From assembly GCA_022072055.1 (NCBI GenBank), contig JAJVIK010000015.1, positions 62,001-126,000 on the forward strand: DNA of 64,000 nt, read 5' to 3'. Of this stretch, positions 1,749 to 45,628 are shown one piece after another (positions within the stretch are counted from its first letter, which is position 1; each line of letters opens with the position of its first letter). Both the position numbers and the translations under genes were made by a program. Source of the DNA: a bacterium. GTDB taxonomy: Bacteria > Hinthialibacterota > Hinthialibacteria > OLB16. The notes under the pieces were generated by a model, which did no database searches, was not told the DNA's origin, and saw nothing but the letters and a program-made list of their open reading frames with translations.

Positions 1749-2207
1749 ATGAACGGATCAGCCCTTTCGTTTTCCGCCGCTCGAACCGCGCCGCCCACCG
1801 GTGGGGGAGGGCTTGAAAAACTCCAGTTGATTGCCGAACGGAGCAAGAACGGCAAACAGCTCTCCGAGTCGGAAATCCAGGAAGTGGGCCGTCAATTCGA
1901 GTCGCTCCTACTTCACCAGCTCCTCACCACCATGCGGCGCTCCATCCCCGATAGCGGACTCTTTGGGGACTCCTCGGCCAAGGACATCTACGAGGACCTC
2001 TTTGACCAACACATCGCGGAAACAGTCTCGCAAGGAGGACAAACCGGGATCGCCGAAACCATTGTGGAGGAGCTCCGCCGGCAGCAATCCCAGGTCGTTC
2101 CCTCTGAGACTGCCTCGGTTTTTCGCCCCCTAGGACGGGAAACCTTGGATTATAAGGCAATTCAGCAAAAAGAAAATTTAATCAAGAGAGTGGACAAACA
2201 TGTTTAA
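1749..2207 (+). CDS. flgJ: Rod-binding protein FlgJ, muramidase-less form
   Basis: This is the rod-capping domain of FlgJ, which helps assemble the rod through the periplasm. The core pattern is clear: QFESLLLHQLLTTMRRSIPD, then GLFGDSSAKDIYEDLFDQH and a Gly-rich turn followed by GIAETIVEEL. At 152 residues it carries only the N-terminal rod-binding domain; the C-terminal peptidoglycan hydrolase domain of gammaproteobacterial FlgJ is absent, as in many other phyla, so a separate muramidase should exist elsewhere. It starts 3 bases after flgI and overlaps the next gene by 8 bases, which argues for translational coupling. Confidence 0.92.
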   Translation: MNGSALSFSAARTAPPTGGGGLEKLQLIAERSKNGKQLSESEIQEVGRQFESLLLHQLLTTMRRSIPDSGLFGDSSAKDIYEDLFDQHIAETVSQGGQTGIAETIVEELRRQQSQVVPSETASVFRPLGRETLDYKAIQQKENLIKRVDKHV

Positions 2208-2757
2208 GTCAGATTATACTCCTTCTAACCGACCAAAGGAGTGGGAGGTCATGCGAAGGCACGAGGAGCGCCTGGCGGAGATCTTGGAAAGGGAAACTCA
2301 CCTTTACGAGGATCTTCGCGGGGTCAAGGACGACGAGGCGCGCGCCCTCTTGGTGTTGTCTTCAGTTGAGATCGAGGCATCCACCGCCAAGCAGGAACGC
2401 TTGGTGGAGGAGGCCATGCGACTGGAGCAGGAGCGGCGCGACATCGTGCTGCGTCTCAGCGCGGGGCATGGTCCTTGGGACCATGAGCCTTCGTTGCGGG
2501 AAATCGCCCCCTATCTCTCCCCGGACATCCGTCGGCGCGTGATCCAATCGGCGCGCGCTCTCTCGGCCGTGTGCGTGGATATCGGGAAGGCGCAGATCTC
2601 GAATTCGGGCTTGATTCGGCGTTCCATCGACTACCTCCACGACTTCATGGAGACCCTCCTGCGCCGGGCGCAAGCCCGGGCGGCGGTCTACGGACCCACG
2701 GGGACATTCTATTCCGGCAAGGAAGCGGTCCCGGGGTTTGTCGACAGAAAGATCTGA
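2200..2757 (+). CDS. flgN: FlgN-family flagellar chaperone
   Basis: A 185-residue, highly charged, mostly helical protein directly upstream of flgK and flgL. FlgN is the export chaperone for these two hook-filament junction proteins. The helical register (EERLAEILERETHLYEDL, then a long EASTAKQERLVEEAMRLEQE helix) and the position match the FlgN family; family sequence identity is always low, so the assignment rests on length, composition and neighbours. The C-terminal tail (about residues 150-185) is Arg- and Gly-rich and may be the partner-binding end. The start overlaps flgJ by 8 bases, indicating coupling. Confidence 0.8.
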   Translation: MFKSDYTPSNRPKEWEVMRRHEERLAEILERETHLYEDLRGVKDDEARALLVLSSVEIEASTAKQERLVEEAMRLEQERRDIVLRLSAGHGPWDHEPSLREIAPYLSPDIRRRVIQSARALSAVCVDIGKAQISNSGLIRRSIDYLHDFMETLLRRAQARAAVYGPTGTFYSGKEAVPGFVDRKI

Positions 2758-2772
2758 TAAGGGAGCAACGAG

Positions 2773-4545
2773 ATGGTCACCCTATTCGGCGCGTTTGAGG
2801 TGGGGGCGCGGGGGCTTCTGGCCCAGCAGCAGGGCCTGAATGTCACTGGCCACAATATCGCCAACGCCAACACCGAGGGTTTCTCGCGCCAGCGGGTCAA
2901 CCTCGCGACCTCCTACCCTCTTAATGTCACCCCCGGTTCGGTCGGCACCGGAGTTCGAGTGGAGTCGATCCAGCGACTCCGCGATGAGTTTCTGGATTTC
3001 CAGCTCCGCGAGGCCACCACCGAGAACGGGTTTCTGGACGCGAACTCGGACATCTTTCTGGAGCTCCAGACGATCCTGCAGGACCCGCTCAACCCACTGG
3101 CCGACACCCTGGAGAACAGCCCCGCCGAATCGGGCTTGAACGGCCTTCTTTCACGGTTCTTCGGGGCCTTCCAGGAACTTGCCGCGAATCCGGAAAGCAT
3201 CGCGGTGCGCGCCACGGTCCGCGAGACCGCGATTTCCCTCGCCGAGGGAATCAGCACGGTGCGCGGGAACCTGAGCGACCTTCGGGAAACGCTGAACAAT
3301 CGGATACGAGACACGGTGAGCGGGGTGAACTCGCTGCTTGAGCGCATCGGAACCCTGAACGAGGACATTGCCCGAATCGAGGCGGTCTCCGGAAACAGCG
3401 CCAACGACCTGCGCGACCTGCGCGACCAAGCCCTCACGCAGCTTTCGGAGTTGGTCCCGATCACGGTCACCCCGCAAGCCAATGGCTCCGTGGATGTGCG
3501 CGTGCTTGGAACCGGGGCGGTGATCGGCAATCGGGTTTCCCCCTTCGAGGCCCTGATCGCCCCTGGGGATTCGAGTGGGGACTATCAGATTGTCAACTCC
3601 CTGGAGCGTTCAAGGGTCCTCACCAACGACCTGGAGGGCGGGAGACTTGGGGCGCTCATCCATGCCCGGGATGATCTGGTTCCGGATTTCATCAATCAGA
3701 TCGACACGCTCGCGGCGACCGTGATCCGCGAGGTCAATCGCGCGCACTCGGGGTCCATCGGCTTGGAGGGCTTCACCTCGCTCACCGGCTCCCAGGACGT
3801 GGCAAATCCGGCCACGGTCTTCGACTCGTTGGGACTGCCGTTTCCGCCCCAGGCGGGGAGCTTCACCCTGCGCGTGGTCAACTCCGAGGGCGTGGTTCAG
3901 AACCTGTACTCCATCAACTTCGATCCCGCGGTGGACAGCTTGGCCGATCTGGCCGCCCGGATTGACGCCATCGATGGGGTCGCGGGACCTGGCGGGGGAT
4001 CGATTTCCGCCTCGGTCACGACGGATAACCGTCTTTCCATCACCGCGAACGGCGGTCTGGAATTCACTTTCCAGGGCGACACCAGCGGAGCGCTGGCCTC
4101 GCTTGGCTTGAACACCTTCTTCTCGGGGAGTGACGGTTCGGACATCGCGGTGAGCGATTTCATCCTCGACCCCACCGAGGGGCTCCGTCGAATCGCGGCC
4201 TCCGCCACCGGCGCGCCGGGAGACAACGGCGGGGCCTTGACCTTCGCGGGACTCCAGAACGCGCTTGTGGCCGGAAGCGGCTCCACCACCATCGGGGATT
4301 TCTACCGCCAAACCATCGCGGAGCTCGGAGTCCGGGCGCAAAGGAACGCGAGCCGGATCGACGCCTCCGAACGGACTCTGAACGGCCTTCGAGACCAGGT
4401 CGAATCGGTTTCAGGGGTCTCATTGGATGAGGAGGCGGTCAACCTGATCCGTTTCCAGCAAGCCTTTAACGCCGCCGCGCGTTACATCACCACGGTCGAC
4501 TCCCTCATCGACCGCGTGGTCAACGGCATGGGTGTGACCAGGTAG
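2773..4545 (+). CDS. flgK: Flagellar hook-filament junction protein FlgK
   Basis: FlgK (hook-associated protein 1) joins hook to filament. The N-terminal rod/hook motif is typical: FEVGARGLLAQQQGLNVTGH followed by NIANANTEGFSRQRV. The C-terminal coiled segment GVSLDEEAVNLIRFQQAFNA followed by ARYITTVDSLIDRVVNGMG is equally diagnostic. Between them lies a variable region (roughly residues 340-460) with a beta-rich, Flagellin_IN-like stretch. At 590 residues it is near the usual length. A GGGAG ribosome site lies just upstream of the ATG. It sits between its chaperone gene and flgL, 13 bases from the latter. Confidence 0.97.
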   Translation: MVTLFGAFEVGARGLLAQQQGLNVTGHNIANANTEGFSRQRVNLATSYPLNVTPGSVGTGVRVESIQRLRDEFLDFQLREATTENGFLDANSDIFLELQTILQDPLNPLADTLENSPAESGLNGLLSRFFGAFQELAANPESIAVRATVRETAISLAEGISTVRGNLSDLRETLNNRIRDTVSGVNSLLERIGTLNEDIARIEAVSGNSANDLRDLRDQALTQLSELVPITVTPQANGSVDVRVLGTGAVIGNRVSPFEALIAPGDSSGDYQIVNSLERSRVLTNDLEGGRLGALIHARDDLVPDFINQIDTLAATVIREVNRAHSGSIGLEGFTSLTGSQDVANPATVFDSLGLPFPPQAGSFTLRVVNSEGVVQNLYSINFDPAVDSLADLAARIDAIDGVAGPGGGSISASVTTDNRLSITANGGLEFTFQGDTSGALASLGLNTFFSGSDGSDIAVSDFILDPTEGLRRIAASATGAPGDNGGALTFAGLQNALVAGSGSTTIGDFYRQTIAELGVRAQRNASRIDASERTLNGLRDQVESVSGVSLDEEAVNLIRFQQAFNAAARYITTVDSLIDRVVNGMGVTR

Positions 4546-17433: not shown

Positions 17434-17739
17434 ATGTTGACAACCGACCACAAGGAATCAATCAAGCGCAGACTCGTGTCCTGCCTCCAGGGTGAACCGG
17501 AGATCAAGAAGATTGTTGTTTTTGGGTCGTTCCTCGAAAGACCTGATCCAAACGACCTGGATGTCGCCGTCTTCCAGGACAGTTCGGAGACCTATCTCCC
17601 ATTGGCCCTGAAATACAGGCAACGAATCCGCGCGGTGACCCGGGAAATTCCAGTCGACATCTTCCCTATCCGACCCGGCGCAAAGGGAGGACTGTTGCTG
17701 GCGGAAATCGAGCGGGGGGAAGTTCTCTATGAAGGATGA
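17434..17739 (+). CDS. MNT-type nucleotidyltransferase (antitoxin of MNT/HEPN pair)
   Basis: A 101-residue minimal nucleotidyltransferase. The catalytic motif is present: GSF at 31-33 followed by DLD at 41-43, the GSx-DxD signature of the pol-beta fold, with VDIFPIRP as a possible third acidic strand. In MntA/HepT systems this protein adds AMP to the HEPN toxin and silences it. The gene overlaps the next by 11 bases, the usual MNT-HEPN arrangement. Such pairs can be defence or stability modules; here it opens an accessory island that also holds integron remains. An alternative is a housekeeping adenylyltransferase, less likely given the partner. Confidence 0.88.
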   Translation: MLTTDHKESIKRRLVSCLQGEPEIKKIVVFGSFLERPDPNDLDVAVFQDSSETYLPLALKYRQRIRAVTREIPVDIFPIRPGAKGGLLLAEIERGEVLYEG

Positions 17740-18115
17740 GGTCCGGGTGTGGCTGACCTATGCTGAAGAGAACCTTCACTCCGCCGAAATCCTACTTGAG
17801 AGCGGTCTCCTGAATCCATCCCTCCAGAATTCACAGCAATCAATTGAGAAGAACCTTAAGGCGCTCCTCTTGGCCTTCGACCTTCCGCTTAAGAGGATCC
17901 ACGGCATCGAAGACCTCTGTCGGATTCTTGAAAAGAAGGGAGTTCAGATTGACCTGACCGTGGAGGAAAGGGAGCTTCTTGATTCGGTATATCTTCCCTC
18001 CAAGTATCCCACTTTCAGTGTGCTCCCAGATTTCATACCTGATACAGAAATCTGCATGGCTTGTCTCAATCTGGCTCGGAAAGTACAGAGACAAACCACC
18101 CAAATCCTGAAATGA
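17729..18115 (+). CDS. HEPN-domain protein (toxin of MNT/HEPN pair)
   Basis: A 128-residue, four-helix HEPN protein. Helix 1 reads WLTYAEENLHSAEILLES, helix 2 NPSLQNSQQSIEKNLKALLL, and the loop KRIHGIEDL corresponds to the R-x-H motif of this HEPN subfamily (Arg56, His58). HEPN toxins are RNases, often cleaving tRNA or being controlled by AMPylation from the MNT partner. The C-terminal region ends QRQTTQILK. Length matches the family. It is translated from the same message as the nucleotidyltransferase. Confidence 0.87.
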   Translation: MKDEVRVWLTYAEENLHSAEILLESGLLNPSLQNSQQSIEKNLKALLLAFDLPLKRIHGIEDLCRILEKKGVQIDLTVEERELLDSVYLPSKYPTFSVLPDFIPDTEICMACLNLARKVQRQTTQILK

Positions 18116-18323
18116 CCCCCATCCTTGCTCCCCCAGGCCAACTCCATTTGCCCAGAGATGGGAGTTCCCGCATGGGATGAATGAAACCGTCCCAATCCCG
18201 TCCAAGGGAGAGGACTCGCCCATGTGACGGGATTCCGGTCCAAAGTCGTGATTGCCCCCTCCAAAATACATGGTATCCTTTCCTATGAAAGTTGCGGCTT
18301 CGGGCGATTGAGACAGGGTAAGG

Positions 18324-18389
18324 ATGATCTACACCCATGTGTTGAACAGGGGCGGCAAGGGTGTCAAGAGCCCCGTGGACGATCTGTAG
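18324..18389 (+). pseudogene. intI: Integron integrase C-terminal fragment
   Basis: Twenty-one codons beginning MIYTHVLNRGGKGVKSP and ending VDDL-stop reproduce the invariant C-terminus of IntI-type tyrosine recombinases, including the catalytic Tyr (third residue). Immediately upstream the frame has a TGA and no recognisable recombinase sequence, so more than 90 percent of the gene is gone. The fragment reads toward the cassettes, that is, in the same direction; this is the arrangement of the so-called reverse integrons known from Treponema and planctomycetes rather than class 1 integrons. Confidence 0.8.
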
Positions 18390-18604
18390 AGGAGCAATGA
18401 GGGTGTTTTATACAGAAACCATATATCCCCATGCGCACATTGCAGAGCTTGATTTAGCGCTCTGGAAATAAAGGCTTTATGCAAACATTGCTGGAGGGTT
18501 CTTGTGCCGCGATGTCGCGGCCCAAAGGTGTTATGAAGAAACGACATAACCGTTGTTAGGGCGCCGGGAGCGCGTTTACATGAAGGCTCGGGGCACCCGC
18601 AACC
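18390..18604 (+). other. attI-like integron end and cassette leader
   Basis: No gene is visible between the integrase remnant and the first cassette-like gene. The stretch holds an imperfect hairpin (GTGCCGCGATGTCGCGGC, at 18504-18521) and then GTTGTTAGGGCGCC at 18552-18565. GTTAGGG at 18555 fits the integron crossover core GTTRRRY except for its last base. By analogy this is the attI recombination site, with the cassette beginning at the TTAGGG. The assignment is by position and motif only. Confidence 0.55.
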
Positions 18605-19306
18605 ATGACGACGACCACCGATAGCAGATCTCGCCCACTACCTCATCACGTCGCCGTACTCGGAGCTGCGGGTGGTCTTGGTCAAGGCATCCTCCGCGTC
18701 TGCCGAGCAGAGGGAATCGGGTTCACTGCCATTGTCCGCTCCCGACCAGAGCGCATCACCGTGGTGCCGGCCCGCTCGCGCGTTGCCGTTGTCCAGTCTC
18801 TCGCCGATCGGGCCGCCCTCACGGGCGCCTTTTCCGGCGCAGATGCCGTTCTCACCGCCCTAGGAGTGACGTCCAAAAGCTACGATCGTTCAGCCCTGCT
18901 CTCGGCGAACATGGCCACCGTTGAGGAGGCAATGCTCGCGGCAGGTGTTGACCGCGTCATCGTGATCAACACACTGATCGCCTCACAACCGGGGAAGCCC
19001 GCGCGGTGGATCATGCGCTTCTTCTCATGGATGCCGGGATCCGTCGGCCGCGGGGCTTCTGAGCAACAAGCGGTAGTAGATGCCCTCGGTCGGGGCGCGT
19101 TCTCGTCGCTTCGGTGGACGCTTGTCCGGGCCGGACTCAACTCTCGCGGTAAGAACGAGCCTCCCGTCGCCTCGGTGGACTGGGATGGGGCTCTGAACTC
19201 ATGGTTGCCCGTCTCGTACGAAGCCATGGGTCGATGGATGCTAGAGGAGGCCGCGGCGAATGTGTTTGTCCGCGCAGCACCGATTGTGTCGCGACGTCGA
19301 ACGTGA
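18605..19306 (+). CDS. NAD(P)-binding Rossmann protein, cassette-like
   Basis: A 233-residue NAD(P)H-binding protein of the NmrA/atypical short-chain dehydrogenase type. It shows the nucleotide motif VAVLGAAGGLGQGILR, then VQSLADRAALTGAFSGADAV, LTALGVTSKSYDR and VDRVIVINTLIASQP. Such proteins range from NAD(P) sensors to quinone or sugar-nucleotide reductases; no substrate can be named. It lies just after the attI-like core and its stop is 17 bases before an attC-like site, the structure of a gene cassette with a short leader. No promoter of its own is clear, consistent with expression from outside. Confidence 0.8.
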   Translation: MTTTTDSRSRPLPHHVAVLGAAGGLGQGILRVCRAEGIGFTAIVRSRPERITVVPARSRVAVVQSLADRAALTGAFSGADAVLTALGVTSKSYDRSALLSANMATVEEAMLAAGVDRVIVINTLIASQPGKPARWIMRFFSWMPGSVGRGASEQQAVVDALGRGAFSSLRWTLVRAGLNSRGKNEPPVASVDWDGALNSWLPVSYEAMGRWMLEEAAANVFVRAAPIVSRRRT

Positions 19307-19322
19307 CCTCTGCCGACAAGCG

Positions 19323-19382
19323 GTCTAACAACGGCATGCAGCGGACGGCGCTCCGCGCCGCCGCTGAACCGGAGCGTTCTGC
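19323..19382 (+). other. attC-like recombination site
   Basis: A 60-base imperfect palindrome. The left core GTCTAAC (19323-19329) fits RYYYAAC. The centre CAGCGGACGGCG pairs with CGCCGCCGCTG, leaving extrahelical bases as in attC hairpins. CAACGG near the left core answers CCGGAGCG near the right. The right core GTTCTGC matches GTT of GTTRRRY but diverges after it, so the site may be decayed. It separates two cassette-like genes. Confidence 0.65.
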
Positions 19383-19389
19383 CAAAGAG

Positions 19390-19914
19390 ATGAAGATCGA
19401 AACGAAAGAGCATGCTGATGCCGTCAATGGGAAGTTCAACCACTTCCACGACGGCTTCATCAAGCAGATCCGCGTCACAAGCGATAACGAGTTTCTGACA
19501 GACATGCCGTGGGAGGAACAACGGCAGTTCCCAACCAACGAGGAGGAACTCCAAGCCGCCGGTCTCTGCCTCCTGAATACGAACTCCGTGGAACTCGTTA
19601 TCCACCACTACAACTACGACTGGCCGAATCAACCCCGCCGGAGATCAATCGTCATCCGGGCCAAGGAAGCCCGGATGACAGACGGATTGCTCAAGTTCAT
19701 AGGTGCTGACATATTCGAGCTCGCCTTCTCCAAGGACGACGGCGGCATCGCGTGCGTTCTTACTCATCACGCAGACGATGCCGGACCGGTTCGGAGCATG
19801 GACAATGGAACCACCACAGTCCTCTTTTCTGCAGATGTGGTGGAACTCGAAGAAACGGAATGGGCAGAACGAACTCCTGCAGGCGACGTCCTAAAGGCCG
19901 CGCCTGAGGAGTGA
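19390..19914 (+). CDS. Hypothetical protein, cassette-like
   Basis: A 174-residue soluble protein of unknown function. The ATG at 19390 is chosen because the longer frame reads through the attC-like hairpin and yields an Arg/Ala-rich stretch (MQRTALRAAAEPER), a well-known artefact of translating such sites. The protein is acidic and beta-rich, with FNHFHDGFIKQIRVT near the N-terminus and VELVIHHYNYDWPNQPRRRS centrally, then FELAFSKDDGGIACVLTHHA; the pattern resembles immunity or DUF-type small proteins that bind a partner. No signal peptide or membrane span. Its own downstream attC is not recognisable; GTTAGTG follows the stop by one base. Confidence 0.7.
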   Translation: MKIETKEHADAVNGKFNHFHDGFIKQIRVTSDNEFLTDMPWEEQRQFPTNEEELQAAGLCLLNTNSVELVIHHYNYDWPNQPRRRSIVIRAKEARMTDGLLKFIGADIFELAFSKDDGGIACVLTHHADDAGPVRSMDNGTTTVLFSADVVELEETEWAERTPAGDVLKAAPEE

Positions 19915-19915
19915 C

Positions 19916-20040
19916 GTTAGTGTCTTGCCGTCATCCGCTGACACCAGAGAAATGCCGTAAGACCTCCCCACCGGCGCACCTTTTATATACCACCCCGTTC
20001 TCCTCTCCCCGGCATGGCGAGTCTGGAGTCTGTAGTCCGG
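19916..20040 (+). repeat. Direct repeat R1 flanking toxin-antitoxin pair
   Basis: About 110-125 bases that recur near 20.62-20.75 kb in the same direction, roughly 80 percent identical by eye. Shared blocks include GCCGTCATCCGCTGACACCA, CCTCCCCACCGGC, ATACCACCCCGTTCT and CTCTCCCCGG. No coding capacity. With R2 it brackets the toxin-antitoxin genes, as if they had been inserted or duplicated with this DNA. Confidence 0.8.
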
Positions 20041-20143
20041 AGTCTGGAGCAAAGGTTGAGAACTATAGGGCCCCCATTTCTCTTGCCGGTTGGTGGCTGG
20101 CGTGGGATACTATCAATATTCGCCTGCTTTCTGGGAGGTGGTT

Positions 20144-20341
20144 GTGGGCCTGCACGAATTGGAAACCGCCGTAACCGACTTACCTGCCGCGGAATTGGCC
20201 GCGTTTGCGCGGTGGTTCGAGGAATATCTGGCCGACGCTTGGGACCGGCGAATCGAAGCGGACATCCAGGCGGGACGACTAGACCAGGTCGGTCGCCAAG
20301 CGGATGCCGATTTCGAGGCGGGGCGGTGCAAGCCGCTTTAA
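20144..20341 (+). CDS. Antitoxin of a RelE/ParE-type pair
   Basis: A 65-residue protein with a helical N-terminus (ELETAVTDLPAAELAAFARW) and an acidic/basic tail (ADIQAGRLDQVGRQADADFE), the pattern of small antitoxins of RelE/ParE systems whose C-terminus wraps the toxin. GTG 20144 is chosen because GGGAGG lies five bases upstream; an earlier ATG or GTG would extend into the repeat. The stop overlaps the toxin start by 16 bases, indicating coupled translation. DNA-binding structure at the N-terminus is not evident, so it may be one of the non-RHH antitoxins. Confidence 0.75.
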   Translation: MGLHELETAVTDLPAAELAAFARWFEEYLADAWDRRIEADIQAGRLDQVGRQADADFEAGRCKPL

Positions 20342-20592
20342 ACCATTTTGCCACGCCGGATTTCTGGCATTGCTATCGTCGCTTACCGGCCGAAGTGTGC
20401 GAGCTGGCGGACAAGCACTTCGAGTTGCTTCGCCAAAACCCACATCACCTTTCGCTGCGACTGAAGAAAGTCGGATCGTTTTGGTCGGCCCGGGTGGGGT
20501 TGCACTACCGCGCATTGGCGCGAGACAGAGCGGAAGGGCTGGTCTGGTTTTGGATCGGCCACCATAGTGAATACGACAAGCTGCTAGGTTAA
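20326..20592 (+). CDS. RelE/ParE-type toxin
   Basis: An 88-residue toxin of the RelE/ParE superfamily: a helical N-terminus (DFWHCYRRLPAEVCELADKH), then FELLRQNPHHLSLRLKKVGS, then strands WSARVGLHYRALARDRAEGL and VWFWIGHHSEYDKLL. The Arg- and His-containing strands and closing H-x-x-Y-D-K-L are typical of RelE-like mRNA interferases, though some relatives target gyrase. GTG 20326 is used because it overlaps the antitoxin as expected and the fold begins there, with GAGGCGGGG just upstream. Confidence 0.85.
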   Translation: MQAALNHFATPDFWHCYRRLPAEVCELADKHFELLRQNPHHLSLRLKKVGSFWSARVGLHYRALARDRAEGLVWFWIGHHSEYDKLLG

Positions 20593-20616
20593 GGAGGAAT
20601 CTCCTGACTCATTCGC

Positions 20617-20745
20617 CATTAGCGTCTTCGCCGTCATCCGCTGACACCAAAGAAAGCCCACGTAAGATCCCCCTCCCCACCGGCACACCCCTTAAATACC
20701 ACCCCGTTCTTCTCTCCCCGGTAGTGTAAGACTGGAGACTGTCCA
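20617..20745 (+). repeat. Direct repeat R2 flanking toxin-antitoxin pair
   Basis: Second copy of the 110-125 base element seen at 19.92-20.04 kb, same orientation, about 700 bases further on. It has CGCCGTCATCCGCTGACACC, CCTCCCCACCGGCACACC and ATACCACCCCGTTCTTCTC. Small indels separate the copies. The DNA after it, to 20.92 kb, holds no gene that I can support. Confidence 0.8.
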
Positions 20746-45129: not shown

Positions 45130-45205
<76 letters not shown>

Positions 45206-45628
45206 CTGGATGGCGTTCTGAATATACACGCGGGCGGGAACAGGTCAAGACAACCCCAAAACGCGCAAAAAAACCAACCCCCGCCGCAACCGTGCGAATT
45301 CGATCTGTGCTGAGACCTACCTCTCAACACTTTGGGTCCATTTGGGGTCTTTTGGCTTCCCTCTACGCGGAGGGCCTGCTCGGTCCCCAAAAGAAGGACC
45401 CTTCTTGATTCTGTAGCCTCACAAGACCGACGTCACGTGAAGGGCAGGGGTCGATGCTTTGATCCCAACTCTCTTTCTCAGATTATACACGCGCCCCGAA
45501 GGACAGACAACCTTTTGTGAGAGGTCTGAATCCTCCCATCCGGAGTCCGGGAAATCCTCGGATCCCGGGATCGGAACTTCTTCCTGCGAGGGGCCACGCA
45601 TGAACCGCGGACACGCGGCTGTTGCAGG
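45206..45628. other. Gene-free stretch
   Basis: About 420 bases without a gene I can support. Short frames on both strands are low-complexity or lack starts. The DNA is locally less GC-rich and holds several short runs of C, T and A. The promoters of the tRNA and of the next gene must lie here, but no box pair stands out. Confidence 0.6.

Follow-up and report, generated by a model that had tools for sequence, protein, structure and literature searches.

In Treponema the integron integrase gene (intI) and the gene cassettes point in the same direction, and T. phagedenis has kept attC sites and lost intI (PMC3607928). An early survey found about one third of intI genes to be pseudogenes (PMC2426708). 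Among the origins proposed for CALINs, which are defined by at least two attC sites within 4 kb and no complete integrase (PMC9668308, PMC8618304), is the loss of intI (PMC8618304). A 2021 review's list of integron-bearing phyla does not include the group to which the present genome belongs (PMC8618304), and a full-text literature search returned no paper joining integron, Omnitrophota and attC (reports beyond the searched literature are possible). The locus described here, within a 64-kb window (the whole stretch of DNA analysed), is a pseudo-integron of a known kind in a group for which we found no published integron. The preliminary description had read it as a decayed reverse integron, a reading that is largely supported.

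Like CALINs and intI pseudogenes, the locus is an attC cluster without a functional integrase (PMC8618304, PMC2426708), with attC sites at 19323 and 19868. Unlike a CALIN, which by definition lacks intI, it keeps the platform end (tail and attI) attached. The comparison with the reverse type of Treponema made in the preliminary description is apt: intI tail, attI and cassettes all lie on the plus strand with the intI 3' end next to attI, the same-direction arrangement of PMC3607928, and attC sites downstream of intI in the same direction are found in many close relatives. The differences from the Treponema integron are the phylum, the survival of a 22-codon intI stub with a complete attI, and the presence of several remnants per genome. 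The closest attI is that of the integron of an Olavius algarvensis spirochaete endosymbiont (L051), which also shares a closely similar intI 3' end and the direction; unlike in the window, the L051 intI (2051-3099) is nearly full length and frameshifted near its end, reflecting either decay or a low-coverage assembly error. The features of the locus are as follows.

18324..18389, plus strand: 3'-terminal 22 codons (21 residues and stop) of a reverse-type intI (TIGR02249 and IntI profile)
18391..18560, plus strand: attI, complete as judged by alignment to the L051 attI and by the attI model, with TTAT-type repeats and hairpin GCCGCGATGTCGCGGC
18556..19376, plus strand: gene cassette 1, 821 bp, bounded by the attI and attC1 crossovers
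18605..19306, plus strand: cassette 1 gene, 233-aa NAD(P)-binding Rossmann (NmrA/SDR-like) protein (PF13460, E = 3.9e-18; PF05368, E = 2.6e-6)
19323..19382, plus strand: attC site 1 (attC covariance model, 33.1 bits, E = 1.8e-5)
19377..19916, plus strand: gene cassette 2, 540 bp, bounded by the two attC crossovers
19390..19914, plus strand: cassette 2 gene, 174-aa protein of no known family (no Pfam match, one insignificant NCBIfam match)
19868..19918, plus strand: attC site 2, overlapping the stop codon of gene 2 (covariance model, 27.3 bits, E = 3.7e-4)

The intI tail, attI site and cassette array

The open reading frame at 18324-18389 translates to MIYTHVLNRGGKGVKSPVDDL followed by a stop. 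Its identification as an IntI C-terminus was borne out by an NCBIfam profile search, in which it matched positions 295-315 of the 315 in TIGR02249 (24.7 bits, E = 1.3e-5), and by a profile of reverse-type IntI proteins (E = 4e-8 among 9,541 six-frame segments); all 21 residues (21/21) are the same as in the intact IntI of L034, an Aminicenantes MAG. Both of the tail's two NCBIfam matches are integron integrases and neither is a generic phage or Xer tyrosine recombinase, while Pfam models, generic integrase models included, gave no match to the 21 residues. The motif MIYTHV holds the catalytic Tyr of the IntI family. Everything upstream of the tail in intI is missing, so that little of the enzyme is left besides this Tyr: a complete intI with its catalytic residues and IntI-specific insert is absent from the locus, which retains the last 21 residues only. 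No amino-acid decay was seen in the tail itself.

Local DNA alignments of the tail region with L034 and L051 end at 18323-18324, and a search upstream of 18324 recovered no intI pieces; a 14-nt gap and patchy similarity further left, given by a forced global alignment, are not claimed, the local alignments to the closest intI genes ending where they do. As this is a single MAG assembly, a chimeric join at 18323 is possible, although unlikely because similar truncations were found elsewhere. A HEPN/MNT pair (PF05168, PF18765) lies at window positions 17434-18115, directly upstream of the deletion joint, and a putative MNT-like nucleotidyltransferase, assigned by sequence, is also found just upstream of the orphan attI on contig C4 of the source genome (L166 3891-4193).

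The GTTAGGG core reported previously is at 18555-18561, with the crossover between G18555 and T18556, and the locus has an attI with the GTT crossover by which functional integrons are recognised. Between stop codon and core, the stretch of ∼170 bp can be aligned over its full length with the post-intI region of L051 (local score 145; shuffled maximum 23-27), and the attI also aligns, less strongly, with those of L034 and L054. An attI model built from 19 attI 3' regions, all from other genomes and each beside an intI gene or intI tail, matched 18494-18560 (24.1 bits, E = 2.4e-6); on both strands of the 64-kb window its sole match outside 18403-18560 had an E-value of 1.7. The site had been called attI-like; because of the end-to-end alignment to L051 and the model score, we regard it as complete. 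A promoter scan for Pc found the sigma-70 consensus absent from 18200-20100, though sigma-70 may not be the promoter type of the host phylum.

The gene following the core encodes the Rossmann protein attributed to it, as its PF13460 match confirms. attC sites were located with a covariance model whose training set comprised 20 sites of other genomes and excluded the window. The model gave two matches in the window (64 kb, both strands), the third-ranked hit reaching 11.8 bits (E = 1.1); its E-values are rough, and the gap between the two sites and background is large. A single attC-like site had been described; that site stands as attC1 (19323-19382), but it is not the only one, as gene 2 has an attC too (19868-19918), and both cassettes end in an attC that folds on the bottom strand. 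The bottom strand of attC2 folds at −18.5 kcal/mol (z = −5.3; 0 of 200 shuffles were as good) and its fold is canonical, the L arms pairing with one extrahelical base; its R'' box GCAGAAC is degenerate and its R' box GTTAGTG good. At attC1 the R'' box GTCTAAC is intact, the R' box GTTCTGC is degenerate, the L' arm is mismatched in part to L'' and the bottom-strand fold has a z of −1.9. This site resembles the left arm of one attC type (cf. L092) fused to the right arm of another (cf. L033), and homologous recombination between two attC sites could have been the source of its mixed arms.

Gene 2 more probably starts at 19390, as suggested by an AAAGAG motif and the position of the attC. Its protein had no match in PADLOC or in plasmids, and none among the other genomes of the class at the threshold applied; plasmid searches with the locus DNA and both cassette proteins gave no matches. 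A third cassette at 19917-20618 was considered and rejected, as the covariance model found no attC at its end. A ParE-like toxin region lies between the two copies of a direct repeat of ∼115 bp (window positions 19917-20033 and 20619-20742, 83% over the repeat core). Homology between the copies begins precisely with the TT of the attC2 crossover (TTAGTGTCTT / TTAGCGTCTT); no further copy was found in the genome, and no attC where the second unit ends. Elsewhere in the window, at 45130-45453 on the minus strand, a tRNA gene adjoins a 6S RNA gene.

Each part named in the preliminary description tested positive, in the order and single direction given there. With a tail of just 21 residues, the locus might be a chance placement of a generic tyrosine-recombinase end beside ordinary genes with hairpins, but the tail profile, the attI alignment, the attI model and two attC sites concur over 1.6 kb, with the order and direction expected of an integron, and generic integrase models gave no match; we consider such a coincidence extremely improbable. 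By the preliminary description's own test, the integron reading would have failed if the tail had scored better as a generic phage integrase and the genome had lacked attC sites; the opposite was seen, with no Pfam match and attC sites present.

Integrase-less remnants in the genome and the class

A whole-genome profile search found no complete intI in the source genome, which is 96.6% complete. Its tyrosine recombinases are Xer-like only, scoring at most 77 bits against a cut-off of 265 with matches that skip the IntI-specific insert, and the intact IntI of another genome of the class (G010) gave no match as query at E = 1e-20. As the genome is 96.6% complete, the absence of intI is likely rather than certain; the missing fraction of the assembly could hold one. 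The genome carries three more integrase-less remnants: contig C5 has an attI and two attC sites, C4 an attI and an attC, and C2 an attI end with half an attC 6 kb beyond it. The attI-model scores were 36.9 bits on C4, 24.0 on C16 (the window locus), 23.4 on C2 and 19.0 on C5.

The attI on C5 (L119) is of another subtype (score 60 against L033; shuffled maximum 32) and starts directly after the stop codon of an AHSA1-family gene. Its two attC sites (25.5 and 19.2 bits) lie downstream, in an array that also holds genes of no known family and a HigBA pair whose end looks like a half attC. The attI on C4 is 72% identical to it over 160 nt and is followed after 2.2 kb by an attC match of 18.9 bits. 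Four of the five attC-model matches in the genome fall 0.8-2.2 kb downstream of an attI match on the same strand (C16, C5 and C4); by our estimate, the chance of one attC match being so placed is ∼0.1%. Two loci in this genome (L025 110-1507 and L166 5945-6628) share a near-identical restriction-endonuclease-like C-terminus followed by the same attC left arm, the copy on C4 being fused to a RhuM-family N-terminus.

The comparison across the class covered 14 genomes, of which one has an intact intI: G010 (JABLXU010000034.1, labelled 'Candidatus Omnitrophota bacterium isolate Ch114'). In the genome set the class seems to be the sole representative of its phylum, which is probably Hinthialibacterota. 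Like the window locus, the G010 integron has intI, attI and attC cassettes in this order and one direction; unlike it, the IntI is complete (351 aa, 484 bits), the cores of the three attC sites are intact, and the attI is of another subtype with no significant DNA alignment to that of the window. attI-like sites at E <0.1 were found in 9 of the 14 genomes, with none in G001, G005, G009, G011 or G012, and attC arrays or single sites in G010, G004, G007 and G011 as well as in the source genome. In G004, intI tails of 43 and 40 residues adjoin attI, which is present in several copies; on contig C86 of G007, attI and attC lie 1.7 kb apart on the same strand. A search around the orphan attI sites of G002, G003, G006, G008, G013, G010 (C55), G007 (C71 and C164) and G004 (C554 and C1013) gave no attC; these sites may be older fragments, or fragments only. 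Synteny with G002, of the same family, was not informative: the ortholog of the downstream hydrolase is present, the upstream neighbours differ and there is no integron there.

In G004, one contig (C396; L020 293-357, 1242-1308 and 2540-2601) has three attI copies within 2.3 kb, including two near-identical copies of ∼65 nt without intI, and a repeated segment of ∼165 bp, with both an attI region and an intI tail adjoining its end; on another (C1251; L171 1464-1534, minus strand) an attI-like region comes after a further intI C-terminus in degraded form (GGKVVKNPMDSL-like, without its stop). In G002 (C114; L167 4366-5456) two attI 3' fragments lie 1 kb apart, each after a similar, apparently duplicated gene end.

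An array that has lost its own integrase could still be served in trans, by an integrase from the missing part of the genome, a plasmid or incoming DNA. The complete attI and canonical attC2 fold of the window, the several attI arrays within one genome, and the attI fragment that G010 carries on a second contig (C55), apart from its intact IntI, would suit this explanation, and exogenous IntI can move CALIN cassettes (PMC9668308). It is nevertheless unlikely, given that searches of a genome 96.6% complete returned no complete intI and that all four attC sites inspected, two from the window and two from C5, have at least one damaged R box.

The attI and cassettes might also have been copied to their present position without a full intI ever having been there, spreading by secondary-site recombination or in the form of attI-type cassettes. 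Such cassettes are known from class 1 integrons, where they are functional (PMC12901181), and orphan attI 3' ends of similar length (∼60-70 nt) stand at several sites in G002, G004, G006 and G007. In L041, an Actinomycetes MAG, the attI core motif also occurs twice beyond one intI (∼9134 and 12015, 2.9 kb apart), the second possibly being an in-array attI duplicate in a reverse integron. However, the window locus keeps 22 in-frame intI codons and the entire attI, which is not expected of an attI fragment moved by IntI, and we regard copying as very unlikely.

History of the locus and its meaning

From its sequence, the locus is very probably a dead reverse-type integron that lost intI and kept attI and two cassettes. 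A chromosomal reverse integron, with intI transcribed toward attI and cassettes in the same direction, would once have worked here and would have captured the two cassettes at attI via IntI-mediated attI × attC recombination. A deletion would then have removed intI except for its last 22 codons, joining the stub to the chromosomal region that now holds the HEPN/MNT toxin-antitoxin-like pair. Without an integrase, cassettes could presumably neither enter nor leave, and the attC sites would drift; one R box is degenerate in each attC of the window array, and such degeneracy, seen in a few sites, is a weak sign of age. The two genes would now belong to the chromosome like any others, and a promoter within attI or ahead of it may drive them.

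The survival of several attI sites in the absence of intI could reflect ready loss of the intI side with retention of the cassette side, or else attI-bearing remnants may be the only recognisable ones. It is also conceivable, though improbable, that integrons of this uncultured class are several dispersed attI-cassette loci per chromosome with at most one trans-acting, repeatedly lost integrase, and not one intI-attI-array unit.

The locus had been presented as a snapshot of integron decay. The reduction of intI to its tail agrees with that view, but such decay is well documented generally (PMC2426708, PMC3607928); the unusual side is that here it is multi-locus and recurrent. One little-studied class provides a graded series of decay, from the intact integron of G010 through the 43- and 40-residue tails of G004 to the 21 residues of the window, then to attI only on C5 and C4 and an attI end on C2. 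Repeated retention of attI after the loss of intI in one genome makes the reasons for array persistence testable, the candidates being the cassette genes, attI-driven expression, or a trans integrase still using the arrays. Where a survey depends on a full intI gene, most of the integron history of such genomes escapes it.
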